From Rhodocyclaceae bacterium (lineage in GTDB: Bacteria; Pseudomonadota; Gammaproteobacteria; Burkholderiales; Rhodocyclaceae): a stretch of 48,668 bases of DNA. Made by a program: the position numbers and the translations under genes. The stretch covers positions 1-48,668 of the forward strand of contig JANXRC010000021.1 in the NCBI GenBank assembly GCA_025353195.1. Reading direction: 5' to 3'. The notes beneath the pieces were generated by a model that was not told the DNA's origin, searched no databases, and saw only the letters and a list, made by a program, of their open reading frames with translations. Position 1 is the stretch's first letter, and each line of letters starts with the position of its first letter. This document shows positions 9,031 to 28,385 of the stretch, piece by piece.

Positions 9031-9837
9031 TCAGGCGGCCAGCGGATGCTCCGCTTCGTAACCCATGCGCATGTCGTAGTCGGCTTCGACTCCGGTGGGC
9101 ATGATCAGGCCGACTTCCTTGAGGCGGGAGTCGAGCAGTTCCAGATATTCGGTCTGCAGCTCTTCCGGCTTCTTCACTTTGATGCCATATTCGTAATAGA
9201 TGTCGAACATCTGCGACTTCACGCCACCGGCCGACGGGCGGCCGTAAAAACCCAGGCCCATCTGCATGAATTTTGGAATGCGCTGCTGCATGAATTCGCG
9301 GGTCTTCTCACCGCCGAACTCGATGCAGCGCTTCGACGCCCAGACGCCGAAAGCGAGATGGCCGTACTCCTCCTTGTGGATGCGCACGTTGACGCGCGCC
9401 CACGGCAAGTAGGAGCATTCGCGATACTGCCCGAGGAAAGCCACGGCGGCCGGCGTGACTACAGTCGAGAACAGGGCGACATCCTCCCAGCACTCGAAAA
9501 ACTTGGACCAGTTCTCCTTGCGGAACCCGTTGATCACGTTGACCTTCGTCGGATCGGGGTTCTCCGGATTATGGGAAAGCTCGTAGAGGCGGGCATCGAC
9601 ATCGATGCCCAGTTCCTGCAACAGGTTCCACACATAGAATGCGTGTCCCATTTCCTCGAATACCTTCTTCGACAGGCGATAAGCCTCTTCAGGGCGGGTG
9701 GCATAGCGATGATTCTCGGCCACGCGCTGGCCGCCCGCGTATTCTGAATCAGCCTGGAAGCACATCAGGTTGATCAGAGCCTTCTTGTAATCCTCGGGCA
9801 GAACATCGCCTTTATCGTAAGTCTTGAACGTGCGCAT
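9031..9837 (-). CDS. PaaA-like di-iron protein (ferritin-fold oxygenase family)
   Basis: 268-aa protein of the ferritin-like di-iron class that includes the phenylacetyl-CoA epoxidase subunit PaaA. The expected ligand pattern is present: E32 in DSEYAGG, E62xxH65 in FEEMGH, E118 in CWEDV and E157xxH160 in HKEEYGH. The ATG at 9837 was chosen because GGAGAGCGG precedes it; the longer frame from 9975 would cross the promoter. The substrate is unknown: no PaaB, PaaC, PaaD or PaaE neighbours are present, so canonical phenylacetate degradation is unlikely. A PaaX-like regulator is transcribed divergently and a flavoprotein reductase lies beyond it, consistent with an oxygenase needing electrons and an acyl-CoA-type inducer. 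Di-iron fold: confident. Reaction: unknown. Confidence 0.85.
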   Translation of the reverse strand: MRTFKTYDKGDVLPEDYKKALINLMCFQADSEYAGGQRVAENHRYATRPEEAYRLSKKVFEEMGHAFYVWNLLQELGIDVDARLYELSHNPENPDPTKVNVINGFRKENWSKFFECWEDVALFSTVVTPAAVAFLGQYRECSYLPWARVNVRIHKEEYGHLAFGVWASKRCIEFGGEKTREFMQQRIPKFMQMGLGFYGRPSAGGVKSQMFDIYYEYGIKVKKPEELQTEYLELLDSRLKEVGLIMPTGVEADYDMRMGYEAEHPLAA

Positions 9838-10171: not shown

Positions 10172-11122
10172 ATGAAAAGCCGCTTCATCAGCCAGTGGCT
10201 GGATGCATTTTTAACCGGCCATACGCTGCGTGCCAACTCGCTGATCATCACCATCTACGGCGACGCGATTGCGCCGCACGGGGGCACCGTCTGGCTTGGC
10301 AGCTTCATTAAACTCGTCGAGCCGCTGGGGCTGAACCCGCGCATGGTGAGAACCAGCGTGTTCCGACTTTCCAAGGAAAAATGGCTGGTCTCGGAACAGA
10401 TTGGGCGCAACAGCTACTACAGCCTGACCGCCACCGGCCACCGGCGTTTCGAGCACGCCTACCGGCGCATCTACGATGATCCGCGCCAGAAGTGGGACGG
10501 TGACTGGCAGGTGGTGTTCACCGGCGGCGGCTTACTGTCGCCACCGCAGCACGATGCCCTGCGCCGCGAACTGCTGTGGGAGGGCTTTGGCGTCATTGCC
10601 CCGGGCGTACTGGCGCACCCCTATGCCAACCACGAGTCGGTACTCGACATCCTGCAAAGCACCGGCACGCACGACAAGGTAGTGGTGATACAGGGCCGCA
10701 CACTCGGCGCCCTGTCCAGCCGTCCGCTGCAGGAACTGGTGCGCGAATGCTGGAATCTGGACGCCATCGCCGAGGACTACAAGCGCTTCAGCGATTGCTT
10801 CCGCCCGGTGACGAGGGCAATACGAGCCGCTCGCGAGCTCGACCCTGAACAAGCCTTCTGCGTGCGCACACTGCTGATCCACGAATTCCGCCGCGTCCAG
10901 TTGCGCGACCCGCAGTTGCCCAGGCAGTTGCTGCCCAACGACTGGCCCGGAGATGTCGCCCGACAGATTTGCAGCGAGCTCTACACGCTGACCCGGCAGC
11001 AGGCCGAGCGCCACCTCGCCAATGTCCTGGAAACAGCCAACGGGCCGCTGCCCGAAGCCGCGCCCTATTTTCAGCTGCGCTTTCGAGCGATGGCGGCGGA
11101 CGGGATCGAGGAAAAGGCGTGA
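10172..11122 (+). CDS. PaaX-family transcriptional repressor
   Basis: 316-aa regulator, the same length as Escherichia coli PaaX, which represses phenylacetate genes and responds to phenylacetyl-CoA. The N-terminal winged-helix region (roughly residues 15-90) includes MVRTSVFRLSKEKWL and a wing-like YYSLTATGHRR. The central and C-terminal parts match PaaX-type sequence (DGDWQVVF, HEFRRVQLRDPQLP). It is divergent from the PaaA-like operon and probably controls it and itself through the TGATA/TATCA sites. The reductase gene overlaps its stop by 4 bases (GTGA), so the two are translationally coupled. The effector is unknown and need not be phenylacetyl-CoA. Confidence 0.9.
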   Translation: MKSRFISQWLDAFLTGHTLRANSLIITIYGDAIAPHGGTVWLGSFIKLVEPLGLNPRMVRTSVFRLSKEKWLVSEQIGRNSYYSLTATGHRRFEHAYRRIYDDPRQKWDGDWQVVFTGGGLLSPPQHDALRRELLWEGFGVIAPGVLAHPYANHESVLDILQSTGTHDKVVVIQGRTLGALSSRPLQELVRECWNLDAIAEDYKRFSDCFRPVTRAIRAARELDPEQAFCVRTLLIHEFRRVQLRDPQLPRQLLPNDWPGDVARQICSELYTLTRQQAERHLANVLETANGPLPEAAPYFQLRFRAMAADGIEEKA

Positions 11123-12441
11123 GCCGGAGCGGACTCCACATCGGCATCGTCGGCGCCGGCCCGTCAGGTTGCTACGTCGCCGACGCCATCGGGCGCAAGC
11201 TGCCCGGTGTCCGCATCGACATTTTCGACCGCCTGCCCACGCCCTTCGGCCTGGTGCGCGGCGGTGTCGCACCCGACCATCAGGGCACCAAGAACATCGC
11301 ACGGCAATTCGAGCGCACGCTCGGCAAGGATGGCGTGCGCTTTCTCGGCAACATCAGCATTGGTCGCGATATTTCCTACGAGGAACTCAAGGCCGCCTAC
11401 GACGTACTGGTCATCACCATCGGCGCGCTGGAGGATCGCCGGCTCGGCATTCCCGGCGAGAACCTCGACGCGGTGTATGGCTCGGGGCAATTCGTCGCCT
11501 GGTACAACGGCATTCCCGATGGCCGCGACCTCGATCCCAGGCTCGACGGGAAAACGGTTGCCATCATCGGCAACGGCAATGTGGCGCTCGACATTGCGCG
11601 TCTGCTGGGCAAGACGCCAGACGAACTGGCGGCTTCAGATCTGTGCGCCCATGCCCGCGCCGCGTTCGAATCCGCCCGCATCGAGGACATCTGGCTGATC
11701 GGTCGCCGCGGTCCGCTCGAGGCAAGCTTCACCACTGCAGAGTTGGCGGAGTTCGGCGACCTCGCGCGCGCGGCAACGCTGGTCGATCCGGTTCAGTTGC
11801 CGCAGACCTTGCCGGATGGCCTGAGCGAGGAGCAGGAAAAGGTGGCGGCGAAGAACCTCGACGTGCTGCGCGCCTATGCCGCACGCGGCGAGCAGAACGA
11901 TCGGCCGTTGCGCATTCATTTCATGTTCCACGCAGCGCCGGTGGCGATCCTTGGGGCAGGCCGCGCACGCGAAGTTGTTCTGGAAAGGACCCGCGTCGAA
12001 AACGGCCGGGCGGTTCCTCGCGGGGAGACGTTTACCATTCAGGCCGACACCGTCATCAGTGCCATCGGCTATCGCAGCACGCCCTTCCCCGGCCTGCCCT
12101 TCGACGCGGCGCGCGGCATTGTCGCCAACGCGCAAGGTCGCGTCGAACCCGGCGTCTACACCTCGGGCTGGTGCAAGCGCGGGCCACAGGGAGTAGTGCC
12201 GGCCAACCGGGCCGACTCCCTGGCGGTGGCCGAACTGATCCTGGCCGATCTCGCCGGCCATGACGGAGTCGGTAAGCCCGGTGCGGCGCTGATCGACGCC
12301 CTGCTTGCCGGACGCGGCGCGCGAGCGGTCGACTTCGCCGGCTGGCAGAGAATCAATGCGGCGGAGGTCGCCGCGGGACAGGGACGACCGCGCGAAAAGC
12401 TGGCCCGCCTCGAAGATCTGCTGGCGGCCGCCGCAGGCTGA
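11119..12441 (+). CDS. Adrenodoxin-reductase-type ferredoxin-NADP reductase
   Basis: 440-aa flavoprotein of the FprA/adrenodoxin reductase family, moving electrons between NADPH and ferredoxins. It has an N-terminal FAD loop (IGIVGAGPSGCYVADAIG), FGLVRGGVAPDHQGTKN, a second dinucleotide loop (VAIIGNGNVALDIAR) and a conserved C-terminal SGWCKRGPQGVVPANRADS. The frame is open upstream, but the GTG at 11119 overlaps the PaaX-like stop and directly precedes the FAD loop, so it is the likely start. Coupling to the regulator suggests the reductase serves the divergent PaaA-like oxygenase; this is inference, since no dedicated ferredoxin gene lies beside it. Confidence 0.92.
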   Translation: MSRSGLHIGIVGAGPSGCYVADAIGRKLPGVRIDIFDRLPTPFGLVRGGVAPDHQGTKNIARQFERTLGKDGVRFLGNISIGRDISYEELKAAYDVLVITIGALEDRRLGIPGENLDAVYGSGQFVAWYNGIPDGRDLDPRLDGKTVAIIGNGNVALDIARLLGKTPDELAASDLCAHARAAFESARIEDIWLIGRRGPLEASFTTAELAEFGDLARAATLVDPVQLPQTLPDGLSEEQEKVAAKNLDVLRAYAARGEQNDRPLRIHFMFHAAPVAILGAGRAREVVLERTRVENGRAVPRGETFTIQADTVISAIGYRSTPFPGLPFDAARGIVANAQGRVEPGVYTSGWCKRGPQGVVPANRADSLAVAELILADLAGHDGVGKPGAALIDALLAGRGARAVDFAGWQRINAAEVAAGQGRPREKLARLEDLLAAAAG

Positions 12442-12463: not shown

Positions 12464-13366
12464 TCAGGCGGCAGCAGTGACCGGCCAGGCGGCGACGCGC
12501 TCGTGGTAGCGCGCGCGGTAAAGCAGCCGCTGGCGCTGCGGTCCATCGACAAAACCGGAGCGGTCGTGCAGCACGTTGTTGCAGACGAGGCCCATGCCCG
12601 GCTCCAGGCGTCCGCGCAGCGTCCATGCCGTCGGTGCCGCGAGCAGGCGCGTCAACGCGGCGACCGCCGCCCGCATGGCGGCATCGTTGCGCCATTCGAT
12701 GCTGATGGTGCGCGCCGTGTAGCGCATGTGCAGGAACCCCTCGCCATCCACCGAAAAGACGGGACCGGACTGGGCGGCGCGCGCCACACCGTTCTCGTCA
12801 TTGCGCGGCGGAATGGTCATGGCATCGGCCCGCGACAGGGCGCGAATGTAATCGTGGCTCTCGTCGCGCAGCAGGATGTAGGCGATCTCGTGGTCGAGCA
12901 ACTGGTTCTCGCCGCCCGACTCGGCGCTCTGCACGCAATGCAATAGCACGCTGCGAACGGTACGCTCGGGCGGGTTGTAGTAGCCGTCGGTGTGCCACTT
13001 GATGGGCTTGTCCGTGTAGGGGATGAATTCCCTGCGTTCGCCGCGTTCCTCTGCGCCGCGCACTGAAATCGGCGAAATCGCGTCGTCGTCGGTAAGCCAG
13101 TGGCTGTCGAGGCGATGCAGGCCGAGGCTGCCACCCAGCCGTCGTGGAATTTCCTTGTCGGGATCGCCCGCGGTGTTGCTGGTATAGATCGCCATGTTGG
13201 TCCTCGCGCAGCGTTCCAGCAAGGCCTCGAGTTCGGTCGCCGTCAGCGCACGCGGGTCGTCGAGTGCGACCAGAATGTCCTCGATGCGGCGCGGCGCGCT
13301 GTCGAGTTTGCGCTCACGCCACCGCCGGTAGCTGGCAGGGTCATCGAGGTCAAACGGCCCCGGCAT
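12464..13366 (-). CDS. TauD/TfdA-family Fe(II)/2-oxoglutarate dioxygenase
   Basis: 300-aa enzyme of the TauD/TfdA family. The facial triad is visible: H125 and D127 in KWHTDGYYNPPER and the distal His near residue 267 in NVLHDRSGFVDG, followed by arginines (QRLLYRARYH) that would bind 2-oxoglutarate. The ATG at 13366 starts 2 bases after the stop of the upstream gene, so it is the last gene of the six-gene minus-strand operon beside dsr. Known family members hydroxylate taurine, sulfate esters, herbicides and other substrates; the substrate here is unknown. The operon's sulfur-carrier proteins suggest a sulfur-containing or RNA-linked substrate, which is speculation. Confidence 0.88.
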   Translation of the reverse strand: MPGPFDLDDPASYRRWRERKLDSAPRRIEDILVALDDPRALTATELEALLERCARTNMAIYTSNTAGDPDKEIPRRLGGSLGLHRLDSHWLTDDDAISPISVRGAEERGERREFIPYTDKPIKWHTDGYYNPPERTVRSVLLHCVQSAESGGENQLLDHEIAYILLRDESHDYIRALSRADAMTIPPRNDENGVARAAQSGPVFSVDGEGFLHMRYTARTISIEWRNDAAMRAAVAALTRLLAAPTAWTLRGRLEPGMGLVCNNVLHDRSGFVDGPQRQRLLYRARYHERVAAWPVTAAA

Positions 13367-13368
13367 TG

Positions 13369-13980
13369 CTATTCGGTTTCGCTTACGGCGCCATGTCGCG
13401 GGCGCCGACTCCCGGCCTCGGGATGAAACAGGCCCGCCAGGGTTTTCTCCAGTGCCTTGATGGCCTCGGGGGATTCGATTTCCATCACCTGATCGACCGC
13501 CCAGAGCTGGTCCTTTTCCGGCAGCACCTCCTTCAGGCAAGCGGAAAAGCACCGGCGAAAACCGAAGTCCGGCCCGCTCTCGGTGTAGCCGTGATCGCCA
13601 TACTCCGCGCCGCGCTGGTTGAACAGATCGACAAAGTGCTCCCGGCACTTGCCCGGCGTAACCTCGACCAGCAGCATGTCGCGATTGTCTTCGATCGCTT
13701 CGGCCATGCGCTGCGCCAGCGCCGTGGTGAACTCGCTGCGTTGCTCGGCCGTCAGTTCGCGGTAGGCGATGCGATCCGCCGCATGGGCGAGAAACACCAT
13801 GAACTCGCAGACGAAGTCGAAATAGGCGTTGCCCAGGTCGATATCGTATTCGGCCTCGCGCATGCGCTTGATCGAATCGATCGCCAGCTTCCAGCCCAGC
13901 ATCGCGATAACGCCGGCGAGTTCCGCCATTGAGCGTGGCTTGCCGCCGGCGTGGAAACTGGAGCGGATGCGAATCGCCAC
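13369..13980 (-). CDS. Helical protein of unknown function in the dsr-divergent operon
   Basis: 203-aa protein, strongly helical and charged, without a signal peptide. A tract around residues 18-70 (AELAGVIAMLGWKLAIDS, FDFVCEFMVFLAHAADRI) may form a helical bundle. Cys occur in EFMVFLA's neighbour VCEF, in GKCREHF, and in FRRCFSACLKE. I do not recognise a family. The last residues (GSRRPRHGAV) are encoded by a diverged copy of the 26-bp dispersed repeat, so its natural C-terminus may have been extended. It is separated by 2 bases from the TauD-like gene and 6 bases from the DsrC-like gene, so it is co-transcribed with both. Confidence 0.8.
   Translation of the reverse strand: MAIRIRSSFHAGGKPRSMAELAGVIAMLGWKLAIDSIKRMREAEYDIDLGNAYFDFVCEFMVFLAHAADRIAYRELTAEQRSEFTTALAQRMAEAIEDNRDMLLVEVTPGKCREHFVDLFNQRGAEYGDHGYTESGPDFGFRRCFSACLKEVLPEKDQLWAVDQVMEIESPEAIKALEKTLAGLFHPEAGSRRPRHGAVSETE
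13390..13415 (+). repeat. Dispersed 26-bp repeat, copy 2 (diverged)
   Basis: Matches the repeat at 21 of 26 positions, including the intact block GCGCCGACTC. It lies in the last codons of the 203-aa helical protein, which reads it on the opposite strand and in a different frame from the other copies. Confidence 0.55.
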
Positions 13981-13986
13981 CGCAGC

Positions 13987-14325
13987 CTAGTATCCGGCTT
14001 TGCCCAAGGGCATCGGCAGGCCCCCGACCTTGCAGCCCTGCTTGGCGGCGCCACCATCGGGGAACAGTTCGAACAACAGCGCACTGTCGGCTTCGGGCAT
14101 GCCGCCATCTTCCTGCAGGCCCTTGATCAGGTTGCGCAGATTCGGCGTGTGGCCATCTTCCTTGTACTTCTCGCGCAGAAAATTGATGACCGTGTGGTGC
14201 TGCTCGGTGAGGGTGAGACCCTCCGCAGCCGCGATGACCTGAACCGCCTCATCGCTGAAATCCGGCTCCAGCAGGTAGCCGTATTCGTTGACGTCCTTTT
14301 CAACTCCGTTGATGGTGTAGCTCAT
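13987..14325 (-). CDS. DsrC-like protein with one cysteine, lacking the penultimate Cys
   Basis: 112-aa member of the DsrC/TusE family (INGVEKDVNEYGYL, HHTVINFLREKY, ELFPDGGAAKQGCKVGGLP). True DsrC carries two reactive cysteines in its C-terminal arm: an invariant penultimate one (CysA) and one about 11 residues earlier (CysB). Here the CysB-equivalent, C98, is present, but the CysA position is K109, and the chain ends in the tail AGY. TusE proteins keep CysA only and RspA-type proteins have neither, so a CysB-only form is unusual. It cannot form the DsrC intramolecular disulfide or trisulfide. The genuine dsrC lies at 19504, so this paralogue may act as a carrier with one thiol or as a regulator. 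Confidence 0.9.
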   Translation of the reverse strand: MSYTINGVEKDVNEYGYLLEPDFSDEAVQVIAAAEGLTLTEQHHTVINFLREKYKEDGHTPNLRNLIKGLQEDGGMPEADSALLFELFPDGGAAKQGCKVGGLPMPLGKAGY

Positions 14326-14345
14326 GGGTGATCTCCTCTCTAACT

Positions 14346-14385
14346 GGTCACCCCTTTCCGCGGGAAAGGGGCTGGGGGATAGGTC
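14346..14385 (-). repeat. Intergenic GC-rich hairpin element (REP-like), copy 2
   Basis: Between the tandem TusA and the DsrC-like gene, a 9-bp stem, CCCCTTTCC/GGAAAGGGG (14351-14371), is flanked by GGTGACC on the minus strand and a C-rich tract. The arrangement matches the elements at 5091 and 28408 in reverse orientation. Confidence 0.6.
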
Positions 14386-14412
14386 AATAAAAAATCGATT
14401 TGAAGATTGCCG

Positions 14413-14895
14413 TCAGGCCTTCTTCAAATAAAACTCATGGACACCGCGCCCGGACTCGTGTGAAAACACCAGTTGGGCCGCGCCTGCCTTGGCCCAGGAC
14501 GTGATGTCGTCGGCCGCTCCCGGGCAATCGCTGACCAGTTGCAGCACCTCGCCCGCTTTCATGCCGTCCAGCAGCTTTTTCGCCTGCACAATGGGGCCGG
14601 GGCAGGACACGCCACGCATGTCCAGCGTCACATGCGCGATCGGCGTGGCATTCGCGCCGCCCGCGCGCTGGATCAGGTAGGCGCTCTTGCGATCCGCAAG
14701 CTTCTCGCTGCCGAGTACGACATTGCCGGTCACCTTTGCCCAGGCAAAGAGATCGTCCGCAGTACCCGGACAGTCGGAAATCAGTCGCAGGGTCTGACCG
14801 GGCTGCAGGTCGTCGATCAGTTTCTTGGCGCCCAGCAGCGGCGCCGGACAGGGCAGGCCGCTTACATCGAGCGTCACGGTGGCAACTTCAGACAT
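14413..14895 (-). CDS. Tandem TusA (two sulfurtransferase domains in one chain)
   Basis: 160-aa protein made of two TusA/SirA-like domains (about 1-78 and 85-160). Each keeps the sulfur-carrying CPxP motif (GLPCPAPLLGAKK with C16, GVSCPGPIVQAKK with C98) and a second conserved Cys in SDCPG (C42, C124). TusA normally is a single domain of about 80 aa that carries a persulfide to tRNA-modification, molybdenum cofactor or Dsr/sHdr systems. Both domains look catalytically intact, so the chain could pass or hold two sulfane sulfurs. It is encoded next to a Cas6-like gene and a DsrC-like gene, divergent from dsr. A GAGG ribosome-binding site precedes the ATG at 14895. Confidence 0.93.
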   Translation of the reverse strand: MSEVATVTLDVSGLPCPAPLLGAKKLIDDLQPGQTLRLISDCPGTADDLFAWAKVTGNVVLGSEKLADRKSAYLIQRAGGANATPIAHVTLDMRGVSCPGPIVQAKKLLDGMKAGEVLQLVSDCPGAADDITSWAKAGAAQLVFSHESGRGVHEFYLKKA

Positions 14896-14920
14896 GAGGA
14901 ACCTCCTCGTTCAGTTATGG

Positions 14921-15514
14921 TTAGCCGCCAACGGCGACGACCGATTTATGGGGCACAAAAATACCGCAGCCGAGCGCACGGTGTTCGCCCAGGCCGCTTT
15001 CCTGCAAAGCCAAGGATTCAGCGGCTCCGAGACCGTGCAACATCAGGCTGAAACCGCGCACCAGACCGTCCACGGCACGCAACTCACGCGCCTTGCCGGT
15101 AATCAGTTGCGGCTTCAGGCCGCGCGCTGCCAGCAAGGACGCGCAACACTCGAGGAATTCGATCTCGTCGTCCGTACCGACGCTGACGAAATGCGAATAC
15201 ACCACACCGCGGGCAGGAAGCAGAGGGCGAACACTGCTCGCGCCGACCTTCAGCGCAGTGCCGTCCAGATCGAGGCGGGCGCCGGTCAGAGAGTCGGCGC
15301 TGGCGCTACGGTGAATCGGCAGGCGCAACACCAGACGGCTGCGGCGACCGACAAAGCGCACGCCATCGCCGCGGGCCAAACCCGACAACGGCAGGATGGC
15401 GGCCTCCGGCTCATCATCGAACCAGGGCAAAACGCGCCGCACCGCCAGGAACAATGCGCTGGCGTGGTCGTCGCCGAGCGTACCCTCTTCGAGCGAAAAC
15501 ACCACATCGACCAT
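14921..15514 (-). CDS. Cas6-like RAMP-fold protein (Cmx6-type), no CRISPR array nearby
   Basis: 197 aa from the ATG at 15514; the frame is open back to a TTG at 15547 that overlaps the upstream stop. Beginning (VDVVFSLEEGTLGDDHASAL), middle (RSRLVLRLPIH) and end (RGFSLMLHGLG, ALGCGIFVPHKSV) match my recollection of the Cas6/Cmx6 family of small RAMP-fold proteins. The glycine-rich GLGEHRALGCGIF near the C-terminus corresponds to the Cas6 G-loop, an RNA-binding element. Known Cas6 proteins cut CRISPR repeat RNA, but no repeats or other cas genes are in this window. Position 67-76 (RSASADSLTG) is encoded by a dispersed-repeat copy. RNA binding is a reasonable inference; endonuclease activity is not shown. 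Confidence 0.65.
   Translation of the reverse strand: MVDVVFSLEEGTLGDDHASALFLAVRRVLPWFDDEPEAAILPLSGLARGDGVRFVGRRSRLVLRLPIHRSASADSLTGARLDLDGTALKVGASSVRPLLPARGVVYSHFVSVGTDDEIEFLECCASLLAARGLKPQLITGKARELRAVDGLVRGFSLMLHGLGAAESLALQESGLGEHRALGCGIFVPHKSVVAVGG
15287..15312 (-). repeat. Dispersed 26-bp repeat, copy 3 (in the Cas6-like gene)
   Basis: The block GAGTCGGCGCTGGCG is identical to the reverse complement of the copies in dsrJ and rnfG. It is translated as RSASADSLTG in the Cas6-like protein, a different reading phase from the DsrK/DsrJ copies. Confidence 0.75.
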
Positions 15515-15543
15515 CAGGCTTGAAGCCTCATCCGATGCGCGAT

Positions 15544-15783
15544 TCAAACGGCCTCCCGTTCCTTGTCAGGCATCCCCGGCTGCGCCGCGGCCCAAGCGCA
15601 CAGCACCTTGCCCCAGCGCGCCGCGGTGACCGGATCGACGTCAAAAATAGTGAAGCGACTGGCCTCGCGAATGCGCGTGCGCAGCATGGGCATGCCGCCG
15701 GCCTCGAAGACGAACTGCTGCAGTTCGATCTCCTGATTGCCGATGGGCACGCGAAACTTGTCGAGCGAGGTAACGGTATCCAA
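15544..15783 (-). CDS. Small conserved-looking protein, first gene of the dsr-divergent operon
   Basis: 79-aa protein (VPIGNQEIELQQFVFEAGG, RFTIFDVDPVTAARWG). I chose the TTG at 15783 because AAGGA lies five bases upstream and the frame before it looks non-coding; an ATG at 15831 is the alternative. I do not recognise a characterised family. Its stop overlaps the extended frame of the Cas6-like gene, so the two are probably translationally coupled. It has one Cys and no membrane segment. Function unknown. Confidence 0.7.
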   Translation of the reverse strand: MDTVTSLDKFRVPIGNQEIELQQFVFEAGGMPMLRTRIREASRFTIFDVDPVTAARWGKVLCAWAAAQPGMPDKEREAV

Positions 15784-15968
15784 GGATTTCCTTCTGTGTG
15801 GGAACGGACTATGGCACCAGCGACGGGTCAACGGCCATCACCGGATGGGAGTGCAAGCATATAACTCTTTCGGGTAGGTCGAATTACCTCTCGGGAGTAT
15901 GGTTTGTGCACCGCACAGACTTCTAAGATCGCTCAATCGAGTTACCCCCGACCACGAGGAGACAGACC
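15784..15968. promoter_or_regulatory. Divergent promoter region of dsr and the Cas6/TusA operon
   Basis: This intergenic stretch must hold both divergent promoters. An inverted repeat, AGGT-CGAATT-ACCT (15876-15889), sits inside a larger arrangement with TCGGG on both sides and is a candidate operator. A TATATG box on the minus strand (near 15860) could be the -10 for the small-protein operon, but no good -35 is visible. A GAGGAGA ribosome-binding site precedes dsrA. Confidence 0.4.
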
Positions 15969-17264
15969 ATGGCCAAGCCCATGCACCCAACACCGAATCT
16001 GGATCAACTGGAAAGCGGCCCCTGGCCGAGCTTTGTCACCGGCCTCAAGCGCATGGCGAAGGACAAGGACTACGTGGTCGACATCCTCGGCCATCTCGAA
16101 CACTCCTACCAGACCCGCAAGGGCTACTGGAAGGGCGGCACGGTCGGCGTGCGCGGCTACGGCGGCGGCGTCATTCCGCGCTTCACCGAAATCAAGGACG
16201 CAGACGGCAAGGCAGTATTCCCCGATGCCGCCGAGTTCCACACCCTGCGCATCATGCCGCCCGCCGGCATGCACTACGACACCAAGACGCTGCGCCAGTT
16301 CTGCGACATCTGGGAAAAGCATGGCTCCGGCCTGATCGCCCTGCACGGTCAGTCGGGCGACATCATGTTCCAGGGCGTCACCTCGGAAAACACCCAGCCG
16401 GCCTTCGATGCCTTCAACGAGATGGGCTTCGACATGGGTGGCGCCGGCCCGTCAGTGCGCACCTCGATGTCCTGCGTCGGCGCCGCACGTTGCGAGCAGT
16501 CCTGCTACGACGAGGCCAAGGCGCACCGGCAGGTGCTCAACACCTTCCTCGACGACCTCCACCGTCCGGCCCTGCCCTACAAATTCAAGTTCAAGTTCTC
16601 CGGCTGCCCGAACGACTGCATGAACTCGATCCAGCGCTCGGACATGGCCATCATCGGCACTTGGCGCGACAACATCCGCACCGACGAAGCGCTGGCGAAG
16701 AAGTGGTTTGCCAAGCACGGCATGAACGAACTGGTCAACGACGTCGTCGCCCGCTGCCCGACCAAGGCCATCCAGATAAAGGAAATCAAGGACGTCCGCA
16801 AGACTGCCGACATCAGTAGCGTGGCGCTGAACGACAGCCAGGCGCTGGAAATCGACAACAAGGACTGCGTGCGCTGCATGCACTGCATCAACGTCATGAC
16901 CGGCGCCCTGGCCACCGGCACAGACAAGGGCGCGACGATTCTTGTCGGCGGCAAGCGCACGCTGAAGATCGGCGACCTGATGGGCACCGTGGTCGTTCCC
17001 TTCATGAGACTGAAAACGGAAGAGGATTACGAGGGCCTGGTCGAACTGGGCCAGAAGATCATCGACTTCTTTGCCGAAAACGCACTGGAACACGAGCGTA
17101 CCGGCGAGATGATCGAGCGTATCGGACTGGTCAATTTCCTCGAGGGTATCGAACTTGAAATCGACGCCAACATGGTCTCGACGCCGCGCATGAATCCCTA
17201 TGTCAATACGATTGGCTGGGATGACGAAGTTGCCAAGATCAACGCCAAAAAAGCCGCTGCGTAA
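15969..17264 (+). CDS. dsrA: Reverse-type dissimilatory sulfite reductase subunit alpha
   Basis: 431-aa alpha subunit of the sirohaem enzyme that, in sulfur oxidisers, oxidises DsrC-bound sulfane sulfur to sulfite in the cytoplasm. Sirohaem-[4Fe-4S] cysteines are seen as CVGAARCEQSC (around residue 167) and SGCPNDCMNS (around 212). A ferredoxin-like insertion carries ARCPTKAI and DCVRCMHCINVM near residues 260-310. Start: ATG at 15969 after GAGGAGA. Presence of dsrEFH and dsrL in the same cluster argues for the oxidative enzyme and not the sulfate-reducing one. dsrB follows after 23 bases. Confidence 0.98.
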   Translation: MAKPMHPTPNLDQLESGPWPSFVTGLKRMAKDKDYVVDILGHLEHSYQTRKGYWKGGTVGVRGYGGGVIPRFTEIKDADGKAVFPDAAEFHTLRIMPPAGMHYDTKTLRQFCDIWEKHGSGLIALHGQSGDIMFQGVTSENTQPAFDAFNEMGFDMGGAGPSVRTSMSCVGAARCEQSCYDEAKAHRQVLNTFLDDLHRPALPYKFKFKFSGCPNDCMNSIQRSDMAIIGTWRDNIRTDEALAKKWFAKHGMNELVNDVVARCPTKAIQIKEIKDVRKTADISSVALNDSQALEIDNKDCVRCMHCINVMTGALATGTDKGATILVGGKRTLKIGDLMGTVVVPFMRLKTEEDYEGLVELGQKIIDFFAENALEHERTGEMIERIGLVNFLEGIELEIDANMVSTPRMNPYVNTIGWDDEVAKINAKKAAA

Positions 17265-26619: not shown

Positions 26620-28059
26620 ATGCATCGCTTCCTGATCTCCGCCGCGCACAAGTCCTCGGGCAAGACCACGATCAGCATCGGGCTGGCCGCGGCCCTGAGT
26701 TCGGGAAAATGCGGCCAGCCACCACGCTCGGTACAGCCCTTCAAGAAAGGGCCGGACTACATCGATCCGCTGTGGCTGTCGGTCGCCGCCGGCCGCCCCT
26801 GCTACAACCTGGATTTCTTCCTTTCGCCGGATAGCGAACTGCAGGCCGAGTTCGCCCGTCATGGCCACGATGCCGAGGTCTGCCTGGTCGAGGGCAACAA
26901 GGGGCTGTATGACGGGCTCGATCTCCACGGCTCGAACAGCAATGCCGCACTGGCCCGTCTGCTCGACCTGCCGGTGATTCTGGTGCTCGATGCGCGCGGC
27001 ATGACGCGCGGCATCGCGCCGCTGATCCTCGGCTACCAGGCCTTTGACCGCAACATCCGGATTGCCGGGGTGATCCTCAACCGCCTCGGCGGTCGCCGCC
27101 ACGAAGCCAAGCTGCGCGCCGTGATCGAGCACTACACCGATGTCCCGGTGATCGGCGCGGTACAGGAAGATGCCGAGCTGGCGCTGGTCGAACGCCATCT
27201 GGGCCTGATGCCGGCCAACGAAACCGCGGAAGCCGAGCGGCACATCGCCGCCATCGGCGAACGAATCGCCGCTCAGGTCGACCTGGATCGCCTGCTGGCC
27301 ATCAGTCATACCGATGTTGCATTGACGGCGCCGGCAGCGCAATGGCGCAGCAATGAAGAGCCGGTGCGCATCGCCATCGCCCGCGATGCCGCCTTCGGCT
27401 TCTACTACGCCGACGACCTCGACGCGCTAACCGCCGCCGGCGCGCAAACCGTGTTCTTCGATACCCTGCACGACTCCAGGTTGCCGCCCTGCGACGGCCT
27501 GCTGATCGGCGGCGGTTTTCCCGAGTGCTTTCTCGGTGAACTCGAAGCCAATACTCCCCTGCGTGCCGACATCCGGCGCGCCATCGAGGCCGGGCTGCCG
27601 ACCTATGCCGAATGCGGCGGCCTGATGTATCTCGCGCGCAGCATCGAATGGAAGGGCAAAGCCGCGGCAATGGTCGGCGTGATTCCCGGCGACATCCAGA
27701 TGCACGCCAAACCGGTCGGTCGCGGCTACGTGATCCTCGAGCCGAACGCGAACCATCCGTGGCGCGCGACCGAAACGGGCGCCGGTTCCGACCCCGCGGC
27801 CGAATCCCCTGTGCTGCATGCCCACGAATTTCACTACTCCAGCCTGCACGGGCTGCCGGCCGACACCCGATATGCCTATGCAGTCCGCCGCGGCTATGGC
27901 ATTGACGGCCAGCACGACGGCGTCATGCTGCACCGGCTGCTTGCCTCCTACACACACCTGCGCGCGACAAGCCGCTGCGACTGGCCGGCGAAATTTGTCC
28001 AGCACGTTCGTGCCTGCCTGACTGCCGATCACAAGGAATCAATCCCATGTTCAACCTGA
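26620..28059 (+). CDS. dsrN: DsrN, CbiA/CobB-like sirohaem amidase
   Basis: 479-aa glutamine amidotransferase related to cobyrinate a,c-diamide synthase, thought to amidate sirohaem for DsrAB. N-terminal nucleotide-binding loop (HKSSGKTTISIGLA), then KKGPDYIDPLW, and a C-terminal glutaminase domain (YAECGGLMYLARSI) with the nucleophilic Cys. ATG at 26620. It overlaps dsrR by 13 bases, so the two are translationally coupled. Confidence 0.95.
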   Translation: MHRFLISAAHKSSGKTTISIGLAAALSSGKCGQPPRSVQPFKKGPDYIDPLWLSVAAGRPCYNLDFFLSPDSELQAEFARHGHDAEVCLVEGNKGLYDGLDLHGSNSNAALARLLDLPVILVLDARGMTRGIAPLILGYQAFDRNIRIAGVILNRLGGRRHEAKLRAVIEHYTDVPVIGAVQEDAELALVERHLGLMPANETAEAERHIAAIGERIAAQVDLDRLLAISHTDVALTAPAAQWRSNEEPVRIAIARDAAFGFYYADDLDALTAAGAQTVFFDTLHDSRLPPCDGLLIGGGFPECFLGELEANTPLRADIRRAIEAGLPTYAECGGLMYLARSIEWKGKAAAMVGVIPGDIQMHAKPVGRGYVILEPNANHPWRATETGAGSDPAAESPVLHAHEFHYSSLHGLPADTRYAYAVRRGYGIDGQHDGVMLHRLLASYTHLRATSRCDWPAKFVQHVRACLTADHKESIPCST

Positions 28060-28385
28060 CCCCGGCTGCCGCCGAACAGATCGCTCGTGCCGCCGCCGAA
28101 CAGCCCGACCGCCAGCGCATGCTTCGCGTGGCCGCCAAGCACGACGAAGTTGACGACGAACTGGTCTATGGCATGGGCTTCGACGAGGAACGCGAAGACG
28201 ATCTGGTACTCGACGCCAATGGCATTGTGATCCTGATCTCGCCACTCAGCCAGCCTCTGCTGGAGAACACCACGCTGGATTTCAGCGAAGTGCAGCCCGG
28301 AGAATTCCAGTTCATCTTTCGCAGCGGCTGCACCACGCCAGCCGCCACCAAGGGCTGCGGAAGTTGTGGCGGAGGTTGTTCCTGA
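28047..28385 (+). CDS. dsrR: DsrR, IscA-like protein with a Cys-rich C-terminal tail
   Basis: 112-aa A-type-carrier-like protein (FNLTPAAAEQIARAAAEQ, MGFDEEREDDLVLD, LLENTTLDFSEVQPGEFQFI). DsrR of Allochromatium, as I recall, lacks the three cysteines of IscA and does not bind Fe-S clusters; it affects dsr expression. Here the C-terminus ends in SGCTTPAATKGCGSCGGGCS, four cysteines that could bind metal or a cluster. The assignment rests on position after dsrN and on the fold-like sequence. Confidence 0.9.
   Translation: MFNLTPAAAEQIARAAAEQPDRQRMLRVAAKHDEVDDELVYGMGFDEEREDDLVLDANGIVILISPLSQPLLENTTLDFSEVQPGEFQFIFRSGCTTPAATKGCGSCGGGCS

Follow-up and report, generated by a model that had tools for sequence, protein, structure and literature searches.

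A Cas6-family gene divergently paired with dsrA in Gammaproteobacteria

Proteins of the Cas6 family normally cut the RNA of clustered regularly interspaced short palindromic repeats (CRISPR). The member studied here is encoded in a Rhodocyclaceae bacterium (assembly GCA_025353195.1, contig JANXRC010000021.1; the whole analysed stretch of 48,668 nucleotides is called the window) in an operon of six genes, which encode DUF6967, the Cas6-family protein, a tandem TusA, a DsrC-like protein, an all-helical protein and a TauD-family dioxygenase, and which is divergent from dsrA of the dissimilatory sulfite reductase (Dsr) cluster. The closest described systems are the Cas6/Cmx6 of type I-MYXAN (PF09559, TIGR02807) and the Cas6 of the type I-B CRISPR-associated transposon (CAST; structures 8fcj and 8fcu). 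The window protein matches these over its whole length and shares the C-terminal loop glycines and the N-terminal His, and the model of a homologue has its best fold matches among Cas6 structures. Unlike them, the dsr-type Cas6 has no detected array or cas neighbours, lies mostly head-to-head with dsrA, carries conserved residues of its own and is separate from a clade of seven cyanobacterial copies.

Accessory genes have also been described for dsr clusters. A tauD gene upstream of dsrA, dsrQ, is said to go back to Lenk et al. 2012. DsrR and DsrS of Allochromatium vinosum, which are accessory to dsr like the genes of the Cas6 module but belong to other protein families, have been given post-transcriptional roles. 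PMC3368242 describes their function as not resolved. A TauD-like gene at the place found here, encoded in opposite orientation to the dsr cluster, carries the name dsrQ, and a release of sulfite from sulfonates was proposed for it (PMC7596348); the passage on it mentions no Cas6, DUF6967 or DsrC-like partner.

Linkage to dsrA and relation to CRISPR

For a named set, genome contigs were scanned with a Cas6 alignment, 232 relatives were confirmed and the best 80 were kept; the scan used a motif of the dsr Cas6 clade and is therefore biased towards this clade. The set includes Sulfuritalea, Sulfurisoma, Thiobacillus, Gallionellaceae, Acidiferrobacterales and others, mostly as metagenome-assembled genomes. 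Less biased samples were searched with the Pfam model and comprised 199 genomes from the GTDB family to which the window belongs, 369 genomes drawn evenly over the class Gammaproteobacteria and 329 genomes of the phylum. The dsrA model was applied with a best E < 1e-40 for the family, 1e-40 for the class and 1e-60 for the phylum.

On 79/80 named contigs, dsrA was found by tblastn, the exception (L101) ending just past DUF6967. The sequence-only reading had named missing conservation in other sulfur oxidisers as the result that would speak against its proposal; the neighbourhood is conserved, and the link holds through the class sample. Here, 118/369 genomes carry Cas6 and 118/369 carry dsrA, with both genes in 111, only Cas6 in 7, only dsrA in 7 and neither in 244 (Fisher's exact test, p = 5e-76, uncorrected for phylogeny). 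In five of the seven Cas6-only genomes, a dsr-type module is recognisable on contigs which are short or cut, and one of these genomes also has a piece of dsrA. The association is no coincidence in the window's family either: Cas6 was detected in 43/199 and dsrA in 48/199 genomes, every one of the 43 Cas6 genomes also matches dsrA (G001, G071 and G132 with fragments only) and five genomes have dsrA only. The phylum sample contains Cas6 in 4/329 and dsrA in 52/329 genomes; Cas6 is confined there to the four dsrA genomes which belong to the same order as the window. Among the class Cas6 genomes, 84/118 have dsrA on the same contig, 82 of these 84 within 6 kb and all 82 head-to-head, the median gap of the same-contig pairs within 6 kb being about 1.7 kb. 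The link between Cas6 and dsr is thus far stronger than could be known from the window: the gene bears a CRISPR family name in almost a third of the sampled gammaproteobacterial genomes, yet its distribution follows dsrA.

No match to ten queries for Cas3, Cas8, Cas5, Cas7, Cas4 and Cas1 was obtained in 178 stretches (2.1 Mb, counting the window and repeated fetches), and no array-like repeats were detected in the same stretches. The queries were taken from two cyanobacterial plasmids and from the type I-C locus of the own genome, hence very distant cas genes could escape. The curated models name the protein CRISPR-associated Cas6/Cmx6, and an ordinary Cas6 could serve the host CRISPR from a distant locus. 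We regard this as extremely improbable, given the fixed place beside dsrA and the lack of detected cas neighbours. Moreover, the one Cas1 locus of the own genome is of type I-C with Cas5c, a type which has no Cas6 according to PMC5965380. Service to the own CRISPR system is contradicted, since this type does not need Cas6. Within the family, Cas1 occurs in 106/189 genomes and in 23/43 Cas6 genomes, and the presence of Cas6 does not track it. For the other 20/43 Cas6 genomes no Cas1 is listed; six are given as lacking it and 14 may lie outside the slightly smaller sample of 189.

In the window, the six genes were confirmed on the minus strand from 15783 down to 12464, and the order claimed beforehand was borne out by open reading frame (ORF) coordinates and Pfam families. 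The features are as follows, with lengths in amino acids (aa):

15969..17264, plus strand: dsrA, head-to-head partner (TIGR02064, 516.7 bits at 15999-17249)
15784..15968, no strand: divergent promoter region with the dyad AACTC-tttc-GGGTA, a type often seen in dsrA upstream regions
15544..15783, minus strand: DUF6967 small protein, 79 aa, TTG start (PF22295, 101.6 bits, cut-off 27)
14921..15547, minus strand: Cas6-family (Cmx6-type) repeat-associated mysterious protein (RAMP), 208 aa from TTG or 197 aa from an inner ATG
14413..14895, minus strand: tandem TusA, 160 aa (PF01206, 122 bits over two stretches, cut-off 28.6), CPxP cysteine motif in both domains
13987..14325, minus strand: DsrC-like protein, 112 aa (PF04358, 94 bits, cut-off 24.9), inner cysteine in KQGCK, end GKAGY
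13369..13980, minus strand: all-helical protein, 203 aa, GTG start
12464..13366, minus strand: TauD/TfdA-family dioxygenase in the dsrQ position of earlier authors (PF02668, 60.5 bits, cut-off 27)

The gaps between the genes, computed from the coordinates, are -4, +25, +87, +6 and +2 bases from DUF6967 to TauD, the first being the overlap of the Cas6 start with the DUF6967 stop. Gaps of mostly a few bases, as had been stated, therefore apply to three of the five and not to +25 and +87. The proposed promoter region in common with dsrA agrees with the 185 bp which separate the divergent DUF6967 gene and dsrA (start 15969, plus strand).

The Cas6-family protein and a possible action on RNA

The protein matches PF09559 with 163.8 bits (cut-off 26.7) and the NCBIfam model TIGR02807 (Cas6/Cmx6) with 128.5 bits (cut-off 98.85). 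A profile search against the PDB at E 0.001 matched only the type I-B CAST Cas6 (8fcj_B, E 1.2e-29). A fold model was made of a homologous DUF6967-Cas6 fusion from L050, not of the window protein, and Cas6 structures rank first for it in Foldseek (8fcu_B, E 1.2e-7; 8fcj_B, 8.3e-7; PfCas6 3i4h, 8.7e-4). In a midpoint-rooted tree, the seven cyanobacterial Cmx6 copies used for comparison with CRISPR, six of which are followed by cas3, form one clade (support 0.997) apart from the dsr copies. Distances of Cas6 correlate with those of DsrA (r = 0.53, 0/500 shuffles).

Residues were counted in an alignment of 154 copies after removal of repeats. The N-terminal His (window His28), which by its position in the alignment is the candidate catalytic residue, is found in 7/7 cyanobacterial, 57/57 distinct class, 2/2 order and 42/76 named copies, the latter being mostly betaproteobacterial. 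The His of VHPL had been considered as catalytic residue and was abandoned after wider alignment, the His of DH being the better candidate. W42 (53/57 class, 76/76 named copies), E128 (56/57 and 76/76) and the His of the C-terminal PHK (window H200; 50/57 and 76/76) are each present in 0/7 cyanobacterial copies. In the C-terminal loop, the glycines show little or no variation. The seventh cyanobacterial copy (L180, Gloeobacter morelensis plasmid NZ_CP063846.1, 76074-84691) has no other annotated cas gene in its stretch and lies near a PAPS-reductase-domain protein and a cupin, which is perhaps a second non-CRISPR use of the family.

DUF6967 is a single-copy gene in the own genome. Its domain in the L050 fusion was modelled as bbbb-a with a predicted local distance difference test score (pLDDT) of about 94, and the fold is predicted to be of a single-strand nucleic-acid-binding type resembling a PUR repeat. 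DUF6967 and Cas6 form one reading frame in L001-L003 (genomes G159, G080 and G019), all of one genus and L050 being the L001 locus; 1/72 named loci with both matches is fused. An apparent fusion in L024 was an artefact, as the alignment crosses a stop codon.

With about even confidence, we favour the reading that the module is a conserved accessory of oxidative Dsr in Gammaproteobacteria including the beta lineages, with Cas6 as a CRISPR-derived, stand-alone RNA-binding part acting on dsr or module transcripts. From the fold and the kept residues, we infer that Cas6 may bind RNA; the action on these transcripts is a proposal. The protein would have left CRISPR to work alone and, together with its neighbour DUF6967, would bind a single cellular RNA or a small number of them, with transcripts of dsr or of the module as the most likely ones. 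Copies which retain the N-terminal His might cut or protect the RNA and those which have lost it might only bind, and this would tune the expression of Dsr. The cysteine-poor DsrC-like protein would not carry sulfur but would sense the sulfur relay or act as its decoy. A control circuit at the RNA level is conceivable, though clearly more speculative, in which the Cas6 RNase and the PUR-like DUF6967 would recognise hairpins in sulfur-oxidation transcripts and cut or cap them on a sulfur-relay signal via the cysteine-less DsrC. Taken together, the data suggest that dsr bacteria borrowed a CRISPR RNA-binding protein for sulfur metabolism. If this is true, Cas6 is reused outside CRISPR, in energy metabolism, throughout a class; many annotations would have to be corrected and a testable handle on the control of oxidative Dsr would be gained.

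Several findings weigh against this reading. The Pfam model detected Cas6 in none of the 48 dsrA genomes from other proteobacterial classes, and twelve further dsrA genomes are without detected Cas6 (5/48 in the family, 7/118 in the class); some of these are incomplete, but G076, G126, G155 and G405 are 98-99% complete. Among the class Cas6 genomes, dsrA is on a different contig in 27 and without match in 7, and in G307 and G523 Cas6 is 41 kb and 517 kb away from dsrA. The candidate His is missing in 34/76 named copies (Tyr 22, Ser 5, Asn 4, Leu 1, gap 2), and the correlation with DsrA distances is lower for Cas6 than for the DsrC-like protein (0.80) and TauD (0.73). The L050 fusion model is modest (pLDDT 73.7, predicted template modelling (TM) score 0.40) and superposes poorly on 8fcu_B (TM 0.26/0.35, root-mean-square deviation 18.4). 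The Foldseek match of the DUF6967 domain to Pur-alpha repeat III has a probability of 0.99 and a target TM of 0.69, but an E of 0.34. Finally, an RNA target of Cas6 was looked for in the gaps of dsr and module by alignment and folding, and none was found; the one conserved element, a dyad upstream of dsrA, looks like a DNA operator, as described below.

This element is the dyad, which reads TATCCC-N4-GGGATA in the class set and TACTC/TACCC-N5-GGGTA in the beta set. It is present in 103/178 distinct dsrA upstream regions (113/194 with repeats, versus 2.7% after mononucleotide shuffling), and a count of the exact TATCCC-N4-GGGATA in 9 genomes gave 0 to 2 occurrences each. As an RNA hairpin target of Cas6 in the dsrA leader it was rejected, a DNA site fitting better, because wobbles are balanced in the class set (third pair: T.G 11 versus C.A 10, equally common, which counts against RNA), the spacer sequence is free, the dyad also precedes dsrA where no Cas6 is nearby (G307, Cas6 41 kb off, and the dsrA-only genomes G155, G126 and G268) and a TATAAT box, read by eye, follows downstream in G307 and G523. 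The fourth pair of the beta set, with 38 T.G and no C.A, would fit RNA. The dyad is probably a DNA operator and may be the binding site of a dsr regulator.

No conserved hairpin was seen by alignment in 11 other gap classes of dsr and module, which is a weak test as the alignments are very diverse. Single sequences of dsr-region gaps were folded and compared to shuffles. The mean z was -3.65 for DsrC-like to rhodanese (21 gaps), -2.89 for DUF6967 to Cas6 (10), -2.61 for TauD/helical (8), -2.41 for dsrB to the next gene (28), -2.38 for DsrC-like/helical (21) and -2.15 for dsrC to dsrM (39). The gaps which were inspected have no obvious common sequence, and some of them resemble terminators or mobile repeats. 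The gaps after DsrC-like in loci with rhodanese, after dsrC and between DUF6967 and Cas6 are candidate terminators, stabilisers or processing sites.

That no RNA element was found would agree with a RAMP fold that now serves to bind proteins or to build the Dsr machinery, without RNA contact, which we consider possible but rather doubtful. The loss of the candidate His in 34/76 named copies, the own residue set of the dsr copies (W42, E128, PHK) absent from the seven cyanobacterial ones and the sulfur-relay nature of the other partners point in the same direction. However, the His is kept in 57/57 distinct class copies, the C-terminal loop glycines are nearly or fully invariant and the neighbour DUF6967 resembles a nucleic-acid-binding fold.

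Module composition and partner proteins

Module genes were counted by tblastn, and as some contigs are short the counts are lower bounds: the helical protein was found in 75/80, DUF6967 in 72/80, TauD in 66/80 and tandem TusA in 45/80 named loci. Tandem TusA is an optional member of the module. Gene order was determined for 76 named loci with called Cas6 and for 38 class loci; L060, L074, L079, L103, L138 and L176, in which no Cas6 ORF was called, were left out of the gene order, residue, cysteine and distance counts. The named, mostly beta loci have the order DUF6967-Cas6-(TusA)-DsrC-like-(rhodanese)-helical-TauD, with rhodanese in 19. The class loci are ordered TauD (25), 63-aa protein (23), 235-aa protein (16), Cas6, DsrC-like, 67-aa protein (18), with DsrC-like on the same strand in 31 genes and the helical protein (16) further on. 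Further recurring neighbours of the class loci are an unknown protein of about 100 aa (L159:10214-10516), DUF6866 (L144:3792-4835) and a 2OG-Fe(II) oxygenase (L150:6232-6804). The distant Cas6 copies of G307 and G523 (L152, L153) have a different neighbourhood, which is common to both.

Five dsrA genomes in the family of the window are without Cas6, and the stretch fetched from each covers just the 1.2 kb or so that precede dsrA. Three of them (L228, L229 and L232) keep DUF6967 and DsrC-like there, two with TusA, and have no Cas6 match; in the same 1.2 kb of L230 and L231, no DUF6967, DsrC-like, TusA or Cas6 was found. As cas6 is absent from three operons which keep DUF6967 and DsrC-like, it would be a tuning part and not a core enzyme. 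Such losses would also suit a module that serves as a side path from sulfonate to sulfite via TauD/DsrQ with Cas6 as a mere passenger of the operon, in line with the sulfite release suggested for dsrQ in PMC7596348. We think this unlikely, as Cas6 equals dsrA in frequency over the class sample, which is more than expected of a passenger, and as L155 has Cas6 beside dsrA and no TauD called nearby.

The DsrC-like protein of the window exceeds the cut-offs of PF04358 and TIGR03342, as expected for DsrC/TusE. Unlike these, 106/107 copies lack the terminal cysteine and 84/107 the second. The tail-motif count covered 107 copies on the Cas6 strand (101/115 loci), of which 1/107 has the terminal (CysA) and 23/107 the second cysteine, and 99/107 have the tail GGY, whereas both cysteines are present in 80/82 DsrCs of dsr operons. 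In the window, only the second cysteine is kept and the protein ends in AGY, with no terminal cysteine. It presumably resembles cysteine-less DsrC relatives called RspA; a literature search for the term gave no paper. Two CPxP motifs are present in 43/49 copies of tandem TusA. The description of the operon as one of sulfur carriers was thus half right, as the DsrC-like protein almost always lacks the sulfur-carrying terminal cysteine and TusA is confined to a part of the loci.

The same counts bear on RNA-directed sulfur chemistry, for instance tRNA thiolation by Cas6, TusA and the DsrC-like protein, which the sequence-only reading had raised. TusA and TusE of Escherichia coli feed tRNA thiolation, both CPxP motifs of TusA are mostly intact and a rhodanese-type gene is present in 19 named loci. 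But the DsrC-like protein without terminal cysteine, the 35/80 loci, some of them short, in which TusA was not found, and an observed link to dsr (no search was made for links to tRNA-modification genes) make this explanation quite improbable. Of the two roles then suggested, the chemistry is without support; RNA-level control, which belongs to the reading favoured here, is possible, with no target found.

For the helical protein, no Pfam family was obtained at E 1, and none of the PDB folds matched by its AlphaFold2 model (pLDDT 89.3) had an E below 1.0. The TauD-family protein has the HTD and the distal His, which we take to be the motif of the family. In a full-text literature search, outside of which most subscription papers fall, no title or abstract among the papers listed linked Cas6/Cmx6 to dsr, TusA or DsrC, and a text search of PMC11406059 found neither Cas6 nor TauD. 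Within this search, the operon had rightly been called undescribed as far as Cas6 and DUF6967 are concerned, but not for TauD, known as dsrQ.

Elsewhere in the window, an IscA-type gene after dsrN (28047-28385) scores below the family cut-off (45.7 versus 58.8 bits) and is taken for dsrR by its position. Next to the module, at 9031-9837 and 10172-12441, a PaaA/PaaC-family protein, a PaaX-type regulator and a pyridine-nucleotide oxidoreductase are encoded; the PaaX gene recurs in 4/80 named loci.

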